This document shows, piece after piece, positions 28,588-37,382 of a DNA stretch of 64,000 nt. Position 1 is the stretch's first letter; each line of letters begins with the position of its first letter. Both the position numbers and the translations under genes were made by a program. The notes beneath the pieces were generated by a model. That model saw only the letters and a program-made list of their open reading frames with translations, did no database searches and was not told where the DNA came from. Source of the DNA: Nocardioides sp. InS609-2 (lineage in GTDB: Bacteria; Actinomycetota; Actinomycetes; Propionibacteriales; Nocardioidaceae); NCBI RefSeq assembly GCF_023208195.1, contig NZ_CP060034.1, positions 4,278,001 through 4,342,000 of the forward strand. The letters run 5' to 3'.

Positions 28588-28851
28588 GCCGAGCTCCGGT
28601 CTCAGTCGTGCACCGGTGCACAAATAATCAACCAAATCACACTAGATTCATTTGGATGAAGCAAATCCGGATGCTCGCCTGTTACGAATGACTTCTGACA
28701 CACCCGCCGGATGGTGCACGCAGTCCCGCTGACTAGGAGCGGAGCCCATCCGGCTCGGCCGACAGGCTCCGCCTGTTCGTCGGCTCGCCAGACACCAATC
28801 GTCCGGCGGGTTCCGAGAAGGTGCACGCAACGCATATGCGAAGGAGTCACA
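28588..28851. other. Intergenic region with palindrome before ferritin-like gene
   Basis: A 264-nt gap, partly AT-rich. GTGCACCGGTGCAC at 28608-28621 is a perfect 14-bp palindrome. TTCAT-TTGG-ATGAA (about 28647-28660) is a smaller inverted repeat, and TAGATT (28643-28648) is a -10 candidate for the downstream gene. No coding content is seen. Confidence 0.5.
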
Positions 28852-29775
28852 ATGTTCGGAAAGACTGTTGTACGAGACATGATCAGCCGTAGTGCCGAGA
28901 ACGAGACCGACCGCCGACTGTTCCTGAAGTCGGCGGGCGTCGCGGGTCTCGGTGTCGTCGGTGCTGGTGCCCTCACCGGCATGGGCACCGTCGCTGCCGA
29001 GGCTGCTCCGGTCAGCGACGGGGCGATTCTCAACTTCGCCCTGAACCTGGAGTACCTCGAGGCGGAGTTCTATCAGTACGCCGCCTACGGCGTCGGCCTC
29101 AGGGACAAGCTCACCACGGGCAAGGGCAAGCGCGGAGGCGTGACCGGTGGCCGCCAGGTCCCGTTCAAGACCCCCGCCATCGCCAACTATGCCCGTGAGA
29201 TCGCCGCGGACGAGCTCGACCACGTCGCGTTCCTGCGTAAGGCACTCGGCGGTGCCAAGGTTTCTCGTCCGGCGATCGACATCCAGGGCAGCTTCACCGC
29301 CGCCGCCACCGCTGCTGGGCTGATCAAGCCCGGCCAGACGTTCGACCCGTACGCCAACGAGAACAACTTCCTCCTGGCCGCGTTCATCTTCGAGGACGTC
29401 GGTGTCACGGCCTACAAGGGCGCTGCCCCGCTAATCCAGAACAAGACCTACCTGGGGGCGGCGGCCGGCATCCTGGCGGTCGAGGCTTACCACGCCGCCA
29501 TCATCCGCACGGCGCTGTACGGCAAGGGTCTGCAGACCGCTGCGGAAGCGATCTCGGATGCTCGTGACAGCCTCGACGGCAAGAGGAACCTCGACCAGGG
29601 CATTGGCGGTACGTCGTACTCCAACCTGGTGCCGACGGACAAGAACGGCATTGCGTTCAGCCGTACGCCGGCTCGGGTGCTCAACATTGTGTACCTGAAC
29701 CCGAAGAGGACCAGGAGGGGCGGCTTCTTCCCCAAGGGCGTCAACGGTGCCATCAACACCAGTGGCGGCAGCTGA
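28852..29775 (+). CDS. Tat-exported ferritin-like protein (desiccation-related, Ferritin_2)
   Basis: A 307-residue protein. A twin-arginine signal is visible at residues 20-50 (DRRLFLKSAGVAGLGVVGAG, then AEAAP). The mature part begins AILNFALNLEYLEAEFYQYAAYG, the Ferritin_2 / desiccation-related PCC13-62 type helix with ExxxxEAEFY ligands. A second ligand helix is around AREIAADELDHVAFLR. The fold is a four-helix ferritin-like bundle; metal binding is likely, storage unproven. Start: ATG 28852, with AAGGAG 5 nt before. Two strong hairpins follow the gene, so it is monocistronic. Export makes an extracytoplasmic stress or metal role likely. Confidence 0.88.
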   Translation: MFGKTVVRDMISRSAENETDRRLFLKSAGVAGLGVVGAGALTGMGTVAAEAAPVSDGAILNFALNLEYLEAEFYQYAAYGVGLRDKLTTGKGKRGGVTGGRQVPFKTPAIANYAREIAADELDHVAFLRKALGGAKVSRPAIDIQGSFTAAATAAGLIKPGQTFDPYANENNFLLAAFIFEDVGVTAYKGAAPLIQNKTYLGAAAGILAVEAYHAAIIRTALYGKGLQTAAEAISDARDSLDGKRNLDQGIGGTSYSNLVPTDKNGIAFSRTPARVLNIVYLNPKRTRRGGFFPKGVNGAINTSGGS

Positions 29776-29921: not shown

Positions 29922-31241
29922 ATGTTCCAGACCCGCCGCTATGCACCCAGTCCGCGCCGCCACGGTGCCGCTGTGCCCATTGCGCCCGAGCTCCTGACAT
30001 CGTCGCTGACCGACCGCGAGGCCGACTTACCCCCGTCTCCCGGCCCGCGCCGTACCCGTCAGTTGTGGCCCCTGCTCGGCCCCGCCTTCGTCACCGCGAT
30101 CGCGTACGTCGACCCCGGCAACTTCGCGACCAACATCACCGCCGGCTCCACCTACGGCTACCTGCTGGTCTGGGTGATCATCGTCAGCAACCTGATGGCG
30201 ATGCTGATCCAGTACCTCTCCGCCAAGGCCGGTGTGGCCACCGGCAAGAGCCTGCCGGCGCTGTGCCGGGACAACCTGCCACGCCCGATGGTGCGCGGAC
30301 TGTGGGTCCAGGCCGAGCTGGTCGCCATCGCGACCGACCTGGCCGAGGTCGTCGGTGGCGCCCTCGCCCTCAAACTGCTGTTCGACCTACCGCTGCTGGT
30401 CGGCGGCACCATCACGGCCGTCGTGGCGTTCGCGCTGCTCGGCCTCAAGTCCCGCGGACATCGGCCCTTCGAAGCGGTGATCACAGGTCTGCTGGGCGTG
30501 ATCCTGATGGGCTTCGTCTACGACATCGCCATCAGCGGTGTCGACTCGATGGCCGTCCTGGACGGCACGATGCCGCGCTTCGCCGGCACCGACAGCATCC
30601 TGATCGCCGCCGGCATGCTCGGCGCGACGGTCATGCCGCATGCGATCTACCTGCACGGTGCGCTGACGAGCGAGCGATTCCGCCCTCGCACCGAGCCCGA
30701 GCGCCGTACGGTCATGCGCAGCCAGCGCATCGACGTCGTCGCCGCCATGAGCATCGCCGGCCTGATGAACCTCTCGCTCCTCCTTATCGCCGCCTCGGCA
30801 CTCTCGGGCCAGAACATCGACTCGATCGAGGGCGCCTACGCCGGCCTCAACACCAACCTCGGCCCGGCCTCTGGTCTGCTGTTCGCCCTCGGCCTGCTGG
30901 CGTCGGGCTTCGCCTCCTCGAGCGTCGGCACGCTGTCGGGCCAGATCGTGATGGAGGGCTTCCTGCGTCGCCGGATCCCGCTGACCGTACGACGCCTGGT
31001 CACGCTGCTCCCGGCGCTGATCATCATCGGTGTCGGCGTCGACCCGACGCGCGCGCTGGTGCTCTCGCAGGTGGTGCTGTCGTTCGGCATCCCGTTCGCG
31101 CTGGTCCCGCTGATCTGGTTCACGCGCCGCAGCGACCTGATGGGCTCGCTCGTCAACCGCCGCACCACCACCATCGCTGGTGCGATCGTCGCGGCGATGA
31201 TCATCGCGCTGAACGCCGTGCTGCTCGTGCAGCTGGCATGA
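29922..31241 (+). CDS. mntH: NRAMP-family divalent metal (Mn2+/Fe2+) transporter
   Basis: A 439-residue proton-coupled metal importer with about 11 membrane helices. Helix 1 carries the metal-binding DPGN motif (AIAYVDPGNFATN, about residues 60-72). Helix 6 carries MPHAIYLHG (about 238), the second ligand motif. The 45-residue N-terminus is cytosolic. The ATG at 29922 is preceded by CGGAGA. Its 3' end overlaps by 41 bp the convergent end of the iron-operon acyltransferase fusion gene, so read-through from either side would make antisense RNA. Confidence 0.93.
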   Translation: MFQTRRYAPSPRRHGAAVPIAPELLTSSLTDREADLPPSPGPRRTRQLWPLLGPAFVTAIAYVDPGNFATNITAGSTYGYLLVWVIIVSNLMAMLIQYLSAKAGVATGKSLPALCRDNLPRPMVRGLWVQAELVAIATDLAEVVGGALALKLLFDLPLLVGGTITAVVAFALLGLKSRGHRPFEAVITGLLGVILMGFVYDIAISGVDSMAVLDGTMPRFAGTDSILIAAGMLGATVMPHAIYLHGALTSERFRPRTEPERRTVMRSQRIDVVAAMSIAGLMNLSLLLIAASALSGQNIDSIEGAYAGLNTNLGPASGLLFALGLLASGFASSSVGTLSGQIVMEGFLRRRIPLTVRRLVTLLPALIIIGVGVDPTRALVLSQVVLSFGIPFALVPLIWFTRRSDLMGSLVNRRTTTIAGAIVAAMIIALNAVLLVQLA

Positions 31242-33720
31242 GGGGCCGCAGCCGGTCGTAGGCCCAGGTGGCGGCGATGCCGACCACCAGCGAAGCGGCG
31301 ACCGCCAGCACCGGATGACCCGCGGCCTCGAGTCCCGGGTACACCTGCCAGTGCGTGAGGTAGATCCACAGCGATGCTCCCGCCAGCAGGCCGACCGCGT
31401 CCGACACCAACCTGGGGAGTACGACGCCGCCACGGTGCATCAGGAGCAGAATCCCGGTCGCCACCAGTACCTCACGGCCAAGGTCGCCGAAGAAACCGAC
31501 CGTCGCGACGATCGTCACGACGGCGACCGTCGCCCGCTGGGCAACGGTGCGTGCCTCGGCCACCGCCCAGCCGAGTGCGAGGCACCACAGCACAGTCAGG
31601 GTGCTGTAGCGCTGCAGCGGTCCGGCATGCACCCCCGAGTCGACCAGGCGCACAGTCAGGGCGACCGCGACGACGGCGAGCGCCGTACGGAAGCGATGGC
31701 GGTGCTGCCAGTGCGCCAGCCAGGGCACGGTCAGCAGGGCCGCGAGGCCGAGCGTGCTCCAGACGAGCGTCTCGAGGAACCAGAACTGCCAATCGGGACT
31801 CCAGGTGCGCTCACCGGTGAGACCGTTGAGAAAGACCGCCGTCGCCGGCCGGTAGTCGCGCGTGACGAGGACGCAGGCGCCGATCCAGAGACCGGCGGGC
31901 ACGGCGACCGCACGCGCGGTCGCAAGCAGGTTGCGCACCCGCTGGTGGCGATCGGGATCGGCCAGCGCGAAGCGGGACAGGTTGAAGCCGGCGACCGCGA
32001 GCAGTACGTGCGCGCCACCTGGAACGAGGACCAGATCGGTGTGGGTGATGACGACCAGGGTGATGGCCAGCGCCCGCAGCAGGGCGGGCATCTCGACCAC
32101 GGCCGTGAACCGGCGGCGTGGGCGCGCGGCGTCGGCCAGGTCTGTGAGGGAGCGGTGCTGCCAGTCGGCCGGCAGGGTGCCGAGCTCGTTTCCCAGCCGC
32201 GTGGACACCTCGACGAACGACAATGAGTCACCACCGAGTGACACGAAGCTGTCAGACACGGCTGCGTCGGGCTGACCCAGGACGACGGCGAACATCGCAC
32301 GCAGCGATTCGGCGGTCGTCCCGGTCGAGGTCGCGACGGCAGGTGCGCCGAGCTCGGTGGCCGAGCGCGCAAGGTGCGTCAGGGTGATGAAGTCGGGCTT
32401 GCCCGACGCCGTCATCGGTACGCCGACCACGCGATGCACGCGTACGGCGCCGGCGGGGATGCCGGCTGCCGCAGCCAGCCGGCGGCGTACGTCGGCATCG
32501 ATGCGGGGGCGGGTGACGAACGCGTGCACCGCGTCGTCGACGGTGACCAGCCGGGCTAGGCCGTCGAGCTGCCGCTCGAGGCGGTCGAGGTCGAGCCGGA
32601 CTCCGAAGACCTTCGCGTGCCGGCCGAGCCGGCCGGTGACCTCCCACAGTCCGTCGTCGTGCTGACGGGCCAGGTCGCCCGTGCGCAGGTCGGTGAGCTC
32701 GGCACCCCTGGCCAGGTCGGCGGCGGACTCGGCGTAGCCCATCATCACGTTGGGCCCGGTGTAGACGAGCTCGGCGTCGGCCAGGCCGAGCACGGGCTCG
32801 AGGCGAAAGCTGCCGCCGGGTACGGGCACACCGATGCAGCCCGAGCGGGCGACCGCGAGGTCGGGCGGCAGGTAGGCCATCCGGGCGGTGGCCTCGGTCT
32901 GGCCGTACATCACGAAGAGGTCCCAGCCCTGGCGGCGGCCGAGCGTGGCGAACTCCTCGACCCGCTCCGGCGACATCCGGCCGCCGGCCTGCGTGACGTA
33001 GCGCAGGCTCGGGAGCTCACGGTCGGCGAAGCCGCTCGCCGTGAGCAGGTCGAAGGTGTACGGCACTCCGGCGAAGCTCGACACCCCCGCTCTTGACGCA
33101 AGATCCCAGAAGCAGGCGTCGGACACCGACAGGTCGGTCAGCACCACCGCGGCGCCGTGGAGGAGGTGGCTCGTGAGGACCGAGAGCCCGTAGCAGTAGT
33201 GAAGAGGCAGCGACGTGATCGCGCGGTCGTCGGGCCGGAGGCCGAGGTAGTCGCCGATGCTGCGTGCGTTGGCGAGCACGTTGTCCCGCGAGAGGCGCAC
33301 GAGCTTCGGCGAGCCGGTCGAGCCGGACGTCGACAGCAGCAGGGCCAGGTCGGGGTGGAGATCGTGCGGCGCGCCGTCGCCGGGAGGGGTGACCAGGCCG
33401 CTGGCTGTCGCCCGCGTTGCGGGGGCATAGCGCTCGCACAGCTCGGCGTCTCGACCGTCAGCCCCTTCTCCGACCAGCAGCACCGGATGGTGGCCGGCCA
33501 GCGCGGCCAGGAACGTCACGACGGTGCGGACGTCGTTGGCCGCCTCGAGCATGACGAGGCGGCGGGTGCTCCCGAGGTCGGTGGATACCTCTTCCACAGC
33601 CTGGCGGAGCTCGGCGTACGTCATCTCGCCCGACGCCGTGATCAGCGCCGTGTCGCCGGGGCGGCCGCCGAGCAGGAAGTGGTCGACGTCCGGCTGGATG
33701 GGGAGGCGGACGGCTGTCAT
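31201..33720 (-). CDS. Adenylation / carrier protein / acyltransferase-3 membrane fusion protein
   Basis: An 839-residue three-part protein. Residues 1 to about 450 are an ANL adenylation domain: LLSTSGSTGSPKL (about 128), SLPLHYCYGLS, MYGQTEATARM, LRTGDLA, GRLGRHAKVFGVRL, and the catalytic Lys in MTASGKPDF. The Asp that binds an amino group in amino-acid adenylation domains is not seen at HYCYGLS, so a carboxylic acid is a likelier substrate. Residues about 465-540 are a carrier domain with Ser in SLGGDSLSF (about 499). From about 545 to the end is a membrane domain with about ten helices whose start, RALAITLVVITH, fits the R-X10-H motif of acyltransferase-3 enzymes. It is coupled to fbpC by an ATGA overlap, at the end of an iron-box operon. 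Inference: loads an acyl group and transfers it across or onto a membrane acceptor. Confidence 0.85.
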   Translation of the reverse strand: MTAVRLPIQPDVDHFLLGGRPGDTALITASGEMTYAELRQAVEEVSTDLGSTRRLVMLEAANDVRTVVTFLAALAGHHPVLLVGEGADGRDAELCERYAPATRATASGLVTPPGDGAPHDLHPDLALLLSTSGSTGSPKLVRLSRDNVLANARSIGDYLGLRPDDRAITSLPLHYCYGLSVLTSHLLHGAAVVLTDLSVSDACFWDLASRAGVSSFAGVPYTFDLLTASGFADRELPSLRYVTQAGGRMSPERVEEFATLGRRQGWDLFVMYGQTEATARMAYLPPDLAVARSGCIGVPVPGGSFRLEPVLGLADAELVYTGPNVMMGYAESAADLARGAELTDLRTGDLARQHDDGLWEVTGRLGRHAKVFGVRLDLDRLERQLDGLARLVTVDDAVHAFVTRPRIDADVRRRLAAAAGIPAGAVRVHRVVGVPMTASGKPDFITLTHLARSATELGAPAVATSTGTTAESLRAMFAVVLGQPDAAVSDSFVSLGGDSLSFVEVSTRLGNELGTLPADWQHRSLTDLADAARPRRRFTAVVEMPALLRALAITLVVITHTDLVLVPGGAHVLLAVAGFNLSRFALADPDRHQRVRNLLATARAVAVPAGLWIGACVLVTRDYRPATAVFLNGLTGERTWSPDWQFWFLETLVWSTLGLAALLTVPWLAHWQHRHRFRTALAVVAVALTVRLVDSGVHAGPLQRYSTLTVLWCLALGWAVAEARTVAQRATVAVVTIVATVGFFGDLGREVLVATGILLLMHRGGVVLPRLVSDAVGLLAGASLWIYLTHWQVYPGLEAAGHPVLAVAASLVVGIAATWAYDRLRPLMPAARAARRSAR

Positions 33721-34754
33721 GACGCTGCCCCCGAGAACGCCAGCACGTCACCCACGACCCTCAGGTCGACCCGGTCGCCGGGGGTCGGGATCGCGTCGGC
33801 GGACGTACGCGCCGTGATGCGTTCGCCGGACGTCAGTCGGACCCGGATCGTTGCGTCGTGGCCGAAGAAGCTGACGTCCTCGACCTCGCCGACGGCGCCG
33901 CCGTTGGCGGGCGTTGGCTGCACCTGCTCGGCCCGCAGCGCGAGCCGGACGCGTCCTGGTGTGACCTGGCCACGAACCTGCACCGAGCCGAGGGCGCACG
34001 TGGCGTGACCGTCGGCCCCGAGCGTGCCGTCGATGAGGGTGGCATGGCCGACAAACGCGGCCACTCCGGCGTCTTCGGGGGAGAGGTAGACGTCGGCCGG
34101 CGTGCCGATCTGCACGAACGCCCCGTCGGCCATCACGGCGACCTGGTCGGCCAGTGACAACGCCTCACCCTGGTCGTGGGTGACCAGCACACCCGCCGCA
34201 CCGCTGGCGCGGACCGCGCGCACGACGGCCCGGCCGGTCTCCTCGCGCAACCCTGCGTCGAGTGAGGCGAACGGCTCGTCGAGCAGCACCAGCGTCGGCC
34301 TCGGTGCGAGCGCGCGGGCCAGCGCGACGCGTTGCTGCTGACCCCCCGACAGCTCGTGCGGGTAGCGCTGGGCGAGCTCACGGGGCAGCTCGACGAGCTC
34401 GAGCATCTCGGCCAGCCGCGCCGGTCGGACGGGATCGCGGCGGGGCAGCCCGAAGGTGATGTTGTCCGCCACCGAGAGGTGCGGGAAGAGGGCCCCTTCC
34501 TGCGGCACGTAGCCGATGCCACGGTGCCGCGGCGCCACCGGTCGGCCCCGCCCGGCGACGACCTTGCCGCCGATCGCGACCGTGCCCGAGTCGGGGGAGT
34601 GGAAGCCCGCGATCACGCGCAGCAGCGTGGTCTTGCCACATCCCGACGACCCGAGCATCGCGGTGACGCCGCCGGCGACGTCGAGGTCGACGCCGCGGAG
34701 CACCGGCTGGGCGGCGTACGACGCGGTCAGTCCGGTCACGTGCAGCGCGGTCAT
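33717..34754 (-). CDS. fbpC: Fe3+ ABC transporter ATP-binding protein
   Basis: A 345-residue ABC ATPase that powers ferric-iron import. Walker A GSSGCGKTT (about 35-43), Q-loop VPQEGALFPHLS, signature LSGGQQQRVALARAL (about 133-147), Walker B LVLLDEPFASLD and H-loop VTHDQGEA are intact. A C-terminal TOBE-type domain (about 245-345) is typical of the FbpC/FutC and sulfate/molybdate groups. Longer upstream in-frame readings lie inside fbpB. The start ATG overlaps the fbpB stop (ATGA), and the stop overlaps the start of the acyltransferase fusion gene (ATGA), so all three are translationally linked. Confidence 0.92.
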   Translation of the reverse strand: MTALHVTGLTASYAAQPVLRGVDLDVAGGVTAMLGSSGCGKTTLLRVIAGFHSPDSGTVAIGGKVVAGRGRPVAPRHRGIGYVPQEGALFPHLSVADNITFGLPRRDPVRPARLAEMLELVELPRELAQRYPHELSGGQQQRVALARALAPRPTLVLLDEPFASLDAGLREETGRAVVRAVRASGAAGVLVTHDQGEALSLADQVAVMADGAFVQIGTPADVYLSPEDAGVAAFVGHATLIDGTLGADGHATCALGSVQVRGQVTPGRVRLALRAEQVQPTPANGGAVGEVEDVSFFGHDATIRVRLTSGERITARTSADAIPTPGDRVDLRVVGDVLAFSGAAS

Positions 34755-36331
34755 CGACGACCTCCGACGGTGATGCGGCTCAGCAGCCAGGTGGCCGGGA
34801 TGGACAGCACGATCAGCGCCAATGCGTACGGCGCGGCCGCGCCGTACGCCACGGACGACGCGTCGGACCAGAACTTCGTGGAGAGCGTTGAGGTGCCGAT
34901 CGGCGAGAGCAGCAGGGTCGCGGTGAGCTCGGTCGACACGGCCAGCGCCACCAGAGCGACCGAGGCGCCGAGTCCGGGCAGGATCACCGGCAGGGTGACG
35001 CGTGCGGCGGCGCGGGGGCCGCTGCACCCGAGCGACCGGGCGACGTCCTCCAGGACGGGTGGGGCCAGCTCCAGGCTCGAGCGCACGCTCACGACCGCAC
35101 GCGGGAGGAAGAGGATGGCGTACCCGAGGACCAGCAACGGCAGGGTCTGGTAGAGGAACGGCACACCGCGGATCGACACCGTGACGAGCGCGAGGGCCAC
35201 GACGATGCCCGGCATCGCACCGGTCGTGTAGGTGCTGCGCTCGACGAGCGTGCCCAGCCACCCCGGGTGGCGTACGGCCAGCCACGCGACCGGCAGGGCA
35301 GCGAGGGTGGCGAGCAGCCCGCCGGCCACGGCCAGGCCCACGGTGGTCGACGCAGCTTCGACCAGCTCGCCGACGTCGAGTGCCGTCGACGACCCACGCA
35401 CCAGCCAGCGGGCCAGGCTCACCAGCGGCACGGCCAGGGCGAGCAACGCGAGCGCCGAGAGCGTCGCGAACACCCACGTCGCATGACGGCCAAGGGCGAT
35501 CGGCTGCAGGGTGCGGGCGGTGCCCGAGCCGACGCGCCAGTGCCGCCGCCGGCCGCGTACCAGCAGCTCGAGTGCCAGCAGCGCCAGGCAGAACAGCACG
35601 AGTACGCCGGCAAGCAGGGTCGCGGCCGGCCCGTTGAAAGCGGTGCCGTACTGCTCGAGGATCGCCGTGGTCAGGGTCGGGTAGTTGAGCAGCTGCAGGG
35701 CGCCGTACTCGGCCAGGAGGTGCAGGCCGACGAGCAGCGCGCCACCCAGCACAGCCGGGCTGATGGTCGGGAGCACGACGCCCACGAAGCGGCGTACGGC
35801 GCCGTGCCCGAGCGCCGCGGCGACGTCCTCGAGACCCGGGTCGAGCCGGCGCAGCGCCGCCACGGTCGGCAGGTAGACGAGCGGGTAGTAGGACAGGCTG
35901 ACGACCACCACGGCGCCGCCGAAGCTCTGCACCGCATGCGTGGTGGAGACCCAGCCGTAGCCGTTGACGAATGCCGGGATGGCGAGCGGTGCGCAGAGGA
36001 TGCCGTGCCACCAGCCTCGCCCGGGTACGTCGGTGCGCTCGACCAGCCAGGCACCGCCGACGCCGAGCAGGGCACTGACGACGACACCAGCGACGAGGAG
36101 CCGGGAGGTGTTCCAGAGCAGCTCGCCGATGCGCGGCCGCACCAGGAACTCGATGGCAGCAGACCAGCCCAGCTCGGCGGTCGAGAAGACGACGTAGCCG
36201 AGCGGGAGCAGGCTCACGGCCGCGACTAGAGACCCCGCGACGAACAGGGCTGCCGGTGCCGGTGTGGCTCGTGTGCGCCCGGGAGGGCGGGGCCCGTCGG
36301 GGGCCCGTTCCGGCGCGAGCGGCGCGGTCAG
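34751..36331 (-). CDS. fbpB: Fe3+ ABC transporter permease
   Basis: A two-module permease of about 526 residues with roughly 12 membrane helices. Two EAA-type loops follow the pattern of FbpB/FutB fused permeases (about GVVLPTISPAVLGG and SLGCSGPRAAARVTLPVILPG). The first usable ATG/GTG is GTG at 36217, but that would cut the first helix. In-frame sequence upstream gives ALFVAGSLVAAVSLLPLGYV, a full helix, behind a Pro/Arg-rich tail. The only nearby non-standard start is CTG at 36331, overlapping the fbpA stop as CTGA with GAGG upstream. I report that end; the true start lies between 36217 and 36331. Confidence 0.88.
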   Translation of the reverse strand: MTAPLAPERAPDGPRPPGRTRATPAPAALFVAGSLVAAVSLLPLGYVVFSTAELGWSAAIEFLVRPRIGELLWNTSRLLVAGVVVSALLGVGGAWLVERTDVPGRGWWHGILCAPLAIPAFVNGYGWVSTTHAVQSFGGAVVVVSLSYYPLVYLPTVAALRRLDPGLEDVAAALGHGAVRRFVGVVLPTISPAVLGGALLVGLHLLAEYGALQLLNYPTLTTAILEQYGTAFNGPAATLLAGVLVLFCLALLALELLVRGRRRHWRVGSGTARTLQPIALGRHATWVFATLSALALLALAVPLVSLARWLVRGSSTALDVGELVEAASTTVGLAVAGGLLATLAALPVAWLAVRHPGWLGTLVERSTYTTGAMPGIVVALALVTVSIRGVPFLYQTLPLLVLGYAILFLPRAVVSVRSSLELAPPVLEDVARSLGCSGPRAAARVTLPVILPGLGASVALVALAVSTELTATLLLSPIGTSTLSTKFWSDASSVAYGAAAPYALALIVLSIPATWLLSRITVGGRR

Positions 36332-37338
36332 AGGAACCCGACCTCGGTCATCATGTCGACGACCCGATCGCTGTCGAGGTCGGAGACGTTGACTGCCGGC
36401 GGCGCCAGCTCGCTGAACGGCTTGACGGGCTCGGGCAGCGACACGGCCGGATTGAGCGGGTACTCCAGCGCATAGCTGTCGGCGAGGCCCTGCTGCCCGG
36501 TCTCGCTGACCAGGAACTCGACGAACTTCTGCGCATCCGACTGCTTGTCGCTCGAGGCGAGTACGCCGGCGCCGGAGACGCTGACGAACGCGCCGGGGTC
36601 CTGGTTGCCGAAGAAGTACAGGGCGCTGTCGTCGCTGACGTCGCCGGACTCCGCTTGGTCGCGGTCCCAGTAGTAGTGGTAGATGATCCCGACCTCGGAC
36701 TCGCCGGAGTTGACCGACTCGAGCACCACGTTGTTGCCGTCGTACACCGTGCCGTTGGCCTTGATGCCCTCGAGCCAGGCCCGGGTCGCGTCCTCACCCT
36801 CGAGCTCCAGGATCGCGGCGACGATCGCCTGGAAGTCGGCGCCGGTCGGCGAGAGCGAGATGCGGCCGGCCCACTCGGGGTCGGCGAGATCCATGATCGA
36901 CCCCGGCAGCTCCGACTCCCCGACCAGGTCGGTGTTGTAGGCGAGCACCGTCGAGCGGGCCACGAAGCCGGTCCACAGGCCGCTGGTGGGGCGGTACTGC
37001 GCGGGGATCGGGGCGACCAGGTCGGCCGGCAGCTTCGAGAACATGCCCTCGGACTCGACCCGCGACATGGCGGGGGAGTTCTCGGTGAGGAACACGTCGG
37101 CCGGCGACTTGTCGCCCTCTTGGACCAGCTGCGCGGCCAGTTCGAGGTCCTTGCCGTTTCGCAGCTCGACGTCGATGCCGGTCTCCTCGGTGAACGCCGG
37201 CGCGAGTTCTTCGATCAGCTGCTCGTGCTGGGCGTTGTAGACCACGATCGAGGGTCCGCCGAGGCCACAACCGGACAGCAGACCACCGGTCATCGCGAGG
37301 GTCAGACCGAGGCAGGACAAGGAGAGCGCGCGCAACAT
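36328..37338 (-). CDS. fbpA: Fe3+-binding lipoprotein of ABC transporter
   Basis: A 336-residue periplasmic-type iron-binding protein anchored as a lipoprotein. The signal peptide ends in lipobox LSGC (Cys24). The mature part begins IVVYNAQHEQLIEELAPAFTEETGI, and the consecutive tyrosines in IIYHYYWDRD (about 215-225) match the di-Tyr iron site of FutA/FbpA proteins. The ATG at 37338 has GAAGG upstream. First gene of fbpA-fbpB-fbpC-acyltransferase fusion. An iron-box-like palindrome covers its promoter, so iron repression by a DtxR/IdeR homologue is expected. Confidence 0.93.
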   Translation of the reverse strand: MLRALSLSCLGLTLAMTGGLLSGCGLGGPSIVVYNAQHEQLIEELAPAFTEETGIDVELRNGKDLELAAQLVQEGDKSPADVFLTENSPAMSRVESEGMFSKLPADLVAPIPAQYRPTSGLWTGFVARSTVLAYNTDLVGESELPGSIMDLADPEWAGRISLSPTGADFQAIVAAILELEGEDATRAWLEGIKANGTVYDGNNVVLESVNSGESEVGIIYHYYWDRDQAESGDVSDDSALYFFGNQDPGAFVSVSGAGVLASSDKQSDAQKFVEFLVSETGQQGLADSYALEYPLNPAVSLPEPVKPFSELAPPAVNVSDLDSDRVVDMMTEVGFL

Positions 37339-37363
37339 GGGGACCTTCAGCGTCGACGACTAG

Positions 37364-37382
37364 TTAGGAATGCCTAACCATA
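37364..37382 (-). promoter_or_regulatory. DtxR/IdeR-type iron box
   Basis: On the minus strand the 19-mer TATGGTTAGGCATTCCTAA matches 14 of 19 bases of the IdeR/DtxR consensus TTAGGTTAGGCTAACCTAA, with GTTAGG/CCTAAC arms intact. It overlaps the probable -10 region of fbpA; TTGGCA (37398-37393, minus) is a fair -35. Expected effect: repression when Fe2+ is plentiful. Confidence 0.75.

Follow-up and report, generated by a model that had tools for sequence, protein, structure and literature searches.

Organization of the locus

The DNA analysed here, hereafter the window, is a stretch of 64,000 nucleotides from Nocardioides sp. InS609-2 (contig NZ_CP060034.1, positions 4,278,001 to 4,342,000), a 4.52-Mb single-contig genome whose closest named relatives are Nocardioides. 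A tight gene run on its minus strand begins with an iron box of the DtxR/IdeR type (37364..37382) and continues through fbpA, fbpB and fbpC into a gene for an 839-residue fusion protein (31201..33720), in which Pfam domains and a structure model place an adenylation (A) domain, a carrier (T) domain and an acyltransferase-3 (AT3) membrane domain in one chain. The subject of this report is that fusion and its association with ferric iron import.

The first three genes encode a predicted Fe3+ importer of the ATP-binding cassette (ABC) class, an assignment made from gene content: a substrate-binding protein (SBP) akin to solved ferric-binding proteins, together with a permease and an ATPase. FbpA (36328..37338) is a ferric-iron-binding-protein homologue of the SfuA/YfuA type with a lipobox-like LSGCG sequence; it matches solved YfuA and SfuA with E values of 6.9e-98 and 8.6e-97, and its alignments to both retain the YNAQHE and YHYY motifs. 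The permease gene, fbpB (34751..36331, with a CTG start assumed), contains two BPD_transp_1 stretches, and the ATPase encoded by fbpC (33717..34754) carries a TOBE_2 domain. An earlier note on this DNA had placed fbpABC and the fusion in a single run behind a 14/19 box, which the coordinates and box scan bear out, and had described the genes as joined by CTGA, ATGA and ATGA overlaps. Both ATGA overlaps, at the fbpB/fbpC and fbpC/fusion junctions, are present; the CTGA at the fbpA/fbpB junction is an overlap only if fbpB begins at CTG. Such a start is plausible, because the first in-frame ATG, GTG or TTG codon, GTG 36217, falls within the apparent first membrane helix.

Domain architecture of the fusion

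The fusion matches three Pfam domains above their cut-offs, AMP-binding at residues 119-329, PP-binding at 472-531 and Acyl_transf_3 at 547-820. Its A domain (residues 1-455, 32356..33720) has the features of the ANL family, a PF00501 core with TSGSTG and YGxTE motifs and an A10 lysine, K441, that is invariant in a 77-row alignment. The carrier domain (residues 472-531, 32128..32307) belongs to PF00550 and keeps the attachment serine, S499 within SLGGDSLSF, in every row of that alignment, as does the AT3 domain (residues 547-820, 31261..32082; PF01757) its R-X10-H pair, R549 and H560. No MBOAT family match to the membrane domain was found in the Pfam scan, nor did the scan of the protein find the condensation domain expected of a nonribosomal peptide synthetase (NRPS) for siderophores; the genome has two condensation-domain matches outside this protein, near 3.91 Mb.

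Alignment places C176, Y177, G218, T243, A245, M271, A279, R280 and K441 in the A-domain pocket. The Asp that binds the amine in amino-acid-activating A domains (position 235) is absent, with Cys176 in 76 of the 77 rows and Ser in the remaining one. A gap-free stretch aligned to VinN puts position 235 at Cys176 and a gapped HMMER alignment to LgrA puts it at Gly178, neither being Asp. These results and the Pfam matches uphold the earlier description of an A domain without the amino-acid Asp, a SLGGDSLSF carrier and an R-X10-H AT3 domain. VinN is also the top solved match to fusion residues 110-370, and the fusion retains the Arg at code position 331 that in VinN is the proposed carboxylate binder. 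Loss of the Asp and retention of this Arg point to an acidic, non-amino acyl group as the likely substrate, a prediction that goes beyond the earlier note. Of the 25 NCBIfam models listed, among 70 matched, none scored above its cut-off, and the A domain thus gained no named function. The contexts of A-domain paralogues (an SBP_bac_1 ABC importer, Asn_synthase and PqqD) were considered as guides to the substrate and pointed to none. Two of these paralogues, L174:6292-7881 and L175:6751-8424, share a YGQTEATAR motif and lie near Asn_synthase genes, the latter also near PqqD and an HPr-kinase-like gene, in neighbourhoods that resemble a lasso-peptide cluster.

The structure model of the fusion has a mean predicted local distance difference test score (pLDDT) of 90.5 and a predicted template modelling score (pTM) of 0.61, the latter leaving relative domain placement uncertain. 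Foldseek matches to the whole model are dominated by A domains. For the AT3 part, HGSNAT and GWT1 came top in a second structural look, and plain Foldseek returned neither at E < 0.001; the modelled domain may resemble HGSNAT, a transmembrane acetyltransferase.

Predicted iron control

The box TATGGTTAGGCATTCCTAA, 25 bp 5' of the fbpA ATG, is identical at 14 of 19 positions to TTAGGTTAGGCTAACCTAA, the 19-bp DtxR/IdeR consensus; all box scores given here are identities, out of 19, to this consensus. Rescoring reproduced the match claimed in the earlier note, and relatives keep such boxes in their promoters. Set A comprises the best 80 of 381 relatives found by scanning named genomes (members of Nocardioides, Agromyces, Cryobacterium, Arthrobacter, Rhodococcus, Mycolicibacterium, Nocardia, Micromonospora and others), and set B comprises 68 stretches from family and phylum genome samples, with some organisms common to both. 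Within a promoter zone around the fusion or fbpA start, 200 bp on the upstream side and 30 bp into the gene, boxes of at least 14/19 occur at 60 of 80 set-A and 53 of 68 set-B loci, rising to 66 and 60, respectively, at a threshold of at least 13/19. Beyond those promoters, only two sites of at least 14/19 were found in 1,637,002 bp of set A and none in 1,216,504 bp of set B (2.85 Mb together). Because such sites in relatives fall almost only at fusion and fbpA promoters, the box of this operon is not a chance match.

Fusions that lie apart from fbpA are also boxed, with at least 14/19 at the fusion itself in 26 of 35 set-A and 12 of 18 set-B loci of this kind. The separately located fbpA copies, 34 of which were checked in set A, carry a box of at least 13/19 in 33 cases and at least 14/19 in 28; the sole copy without a 13/19 promoter box, that of L184, has a 15/19 site at another position of its stretch. 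No promoter box of at least 13/19 was found at 14 of 80 set-A and 8 of 68 set-B loci, among them those of several Nocardioides in which the fusion comes before fbpABC, and four mycobacterial loci where the fusion stands alone (L058, L060, L086 and L087). Two fusion copies occur in Micromonospora fulviviridis (L080, 3605-6232 and 9944-12529), each with a 16-17/19 box at or near its called start.

The source genome has seven distinct places that fit an iron-box pattern with up to two mismatches, and none that fit the backward control pattern. The six sites besides the operon box adjoin genes for a FecCD permease, a Peripla_BP_2 binding protein, an FTR1/imelysin/Dyp group, SIP, ferritin and an Rv2525c-like protein, so that five of the six lie by genes of iron families. 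At the FecCD permease gene (L166:8732-9919), the 16/19 box falls within the called start of the open reading frame, suggesting that the true start is downstream. A promoter box that recurs in relatives, together with a DtxR-family gene of the source genome (PF01325, 70 bits), gives the fusion operon the sequence features of a DtxR/IdeR regulon, and the comparative evidence strongly supports the prediction that it is iron-regulated.

Distribution and partnership with the ferric importer

At a threshold of E 1e-40 or better, the fusion is matched in 61 of 148 Nocardioidaceae genomes (60 after removal of G134, an A-domain-only match) and in 24 of 396 genomes of a phylum sample (23 after removal of G339). 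Genome-wide searches for fbpA (E 1e-25 or better) show a marked asymmetry. In Nocardioidaceae, fbpA is present in 59 of 60 fusion-bearing versus 9 of 88 fusion-less genomes; the corresponding phylum counts are 20 of 23 versus 109 of 373, so that 129 of the 396 sampled genomes have an FbpA match. FbpA is thus frequent without the fusion, and the converse dependence does not hold; the fusion therefore seems to need the importer, and not vice versa.

The two genes adjoin one another, within 7.5 kb, at 45 of 80 set-A and 50 of 68 set-B loci. Their arrangement varies: fbpA lies upstream on the same strand in 25 and 33 loci (sets A and B), downstream on the same strand in 11 and 8, convergent in 7 and 7, and divergent in 2 and 2. 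A FastTree phylogeny built from 148 fusions, representing 140 distinct sequences, requires a minimum of 9 changes among these four arrangements with unlinked rows excluded, 17 when "unlinked" is added as a fifth state, and 15 between linked and unlinked, or 13 if three loci truncated by contig ends are dropped. Such repeated changes indicate that the linkage is more than an accident inherited once. Where fbpA does not adjoin the fusion in set A, 34 of 35 genomes encode it elsewhere; contig ends truncate some of these loci, which may in truth be linked. The partner can also differ in kind, since the convergent locus L107 has a FutA-like rather than SfuA-like binding protein (7li0, E 2.8e-79), so that two SBP classes accompany the fusion. 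Box conservation, linkage and co-occurrence strongly support, at the comparative level, a functional tie between the fusion and ferric import, as well as the iron regulation suggested in the earlier note. That note had held that its proposal would fail if most relatives carried the fusion without iron genes, and the opposite was found.

Other candidate associations fared less well. The source genome has no IucA/IucC synthetase of the NRPS-independent siderophore (NIS) type, and within Nocardioidaceae such genes occur in 18 of 60 fusion-bearing versus 31 of 88 fusion-less genomes (p 0.59), so that the fusion shows no association with this siderophore synthetase in the family. Annotation of 20 neighbour proteins of lone fusions revealed no conserved extra partner; DUF1206 in mycobacteria, an MFS gene in Agromyces, and cadmium and P-type ATPase genes in Rhodococcus appear to be lineage habits.

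In the window itself, mntH, an Nramp Mn/Fe transporter gene (29922-31241), is convergent with the fusion gene and shares 41 bp with its 3' end. A Ferritin_2 domain protein (28711-29775) adjoins mntH, grouping metal-related genes at the locus, and a DDE transposase gene (PF13701, 38361-39830) lies just upstream of the operon.

A proposed role in iron acquisition

To our knowledge, it is unclear by what means Gram-positive cells keep Fe3+ within reach of FbpABC-type importers. We read the fusion as a probable iron-starvation-induced acylation enzyme serving FbpABC, on the basis of its conserved box sites, repeated linkage, near-obligate co-occurrence with the importer and intact catalytic residues. 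In low iron, IdeR would let go of the box. The A domain would then adenylate an acidic, non-amino carboxylic acid and load it onto its own carrier at Ser499, whose phosphopantetheine arm would reach into the AT3 domain from the cytoplasmic side. Acyl transfer assisted by His560 would follow, to an outside acceptor that might be a wall glycan, a glycolipid or a small molecule, and the new carboxylate would bind or channel Fe3+ for FbpABC. An acylated surface or secreted product, as the earlier note supposed, fits the AT3 domain; its iron-capturing lipid may be one option, which nothing specific singles out. That the fusion and FbpABC form one iron-starvation uptake system, with an acylated outer-face molecule helping to deliver ferric iron to FbpA, is a proposal that we hold evenly in the balance. 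A stronger version, in which surface carboxylates added under iron starvation act as a fixed ferric antenna feeding the ABC importer, would represent a novel mode of iron acquisition in bacteria, conserved across Actinomycetota and without a classical siderophore; we advance it tentatively, as possible but doubtful.

The fusion could instead join its carrier-bound acid, at the membrane, to a soluble amine or alcohol and release a diffusible, siderophore-like compound whose ferric complex is bound by FbpA. The boxes at fusion loci, the resemblance of an A-T didomain to siderophore assembly, the co-occurrence with FbpA and the absence of an NIS-type synthetase from the source genome are all consistent with such a product. 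FbpA-type proteins usually accept bare Fe3+, however, the fusion has no condensation domain, the annotated neighbours of lone fusions include no conserved exporter or tailoring gene, and the source genome already has boxed genes of the siderophore-uptake type, which together make this explanation rather unlikely. Remodelling of the low-iron envelope, for example by O-acylation of wall polymers for porosity or stress, would require no iron binding by the fusion itself. This alternative draws on the HGSNAT-like AT3 model and on the diverse carbohydrates that AT3 proteins have been described as acylating (PMC9833829). It is improbable in our judgement, as it leaves the near-universal FbpA, of either class, in fusion genomes unexplained. 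Acylation of a protein such as the FbpA lipoprotein or the transporter, suggested by tight coupling to FbpABC and the LSGCG sequence, is highly improbable, given that we know of no protein acylation by AT3 enzymes and that the partner binding proteins fall in two SBP classes.

Comparison with known systems

Our literature search, outside which most subscription papers lay, found no published description of the fusion; its individual domains are of known kinds, and their union in one chain with a tie to ferric import appears to be new to the literature. An iron-boxed enzyme this widespread, hardly ever met apart from an importer of the FbpABC type, offers a partner that can be tested for iron uptake without siderophores, and such importers are common. 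The fusion may also be an instance of a membrane acyltransferase that is supplied from adenylation and carrier domains in the same chain, not by acyl-CoA.

The FbpABC/SfuABC importers and MSMEG_3633-3636 of Mycobacterium smegmatis are like the present operon in their three types of transporter gene. MSMEG_3632, a candidate for a mycobacterial counterpart of the fusion, is named in no paper that our literature search covered. The portion of the mycobacterial report used here describes msmeg_3633-36 as a putative ferric ABC transporter required for low-iron growth when both siderophores are lacking, a siderophore-independent role, and names no acyl-transfer fusion (PMC6684656); a second report records that two of these genes are up under sodium citrate (PMC10597346). 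With the AT3 acyltransferases OafB and OatA, the fusion shares PF01757, R-X10-H, an RXXR motif (RHQR, 591-594) and an all-helical membrane model, which may be HGSNAT-like. AT3 fusions elsewhere are described, in the portion of the source used, as carrying SGNH or alanine racemase domains, with acyl-CoA the likely donor (PMC9833829), whereas the present fusion brings adenylation and carrier domains within one chain. VinN-type adenylation enzymes include its best solved match and share the Arg at code position 331, but VinN Asp230 aligns with Cys176, the loop before the Arg is one residue longer here, and the A domain belongs to a membrane fusion.

Two further systems bear comparison. In the Dlt system, DltA, DltC and a membrane acyltransferase carry out adenylation, carriage and membrane transfer to an outside acceptor; the fusion differs in having AT3 rather than MBOAT, a single chain, a predicted non-amino substrate and iron boxes. 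The Pls/PosA poly-amino-acid synthetases likewise have an A-T unit followed by a membrane part, from which the fusion is set apart by the loss of the amine-binding Asp and by a membrane domain of the AT3 family.
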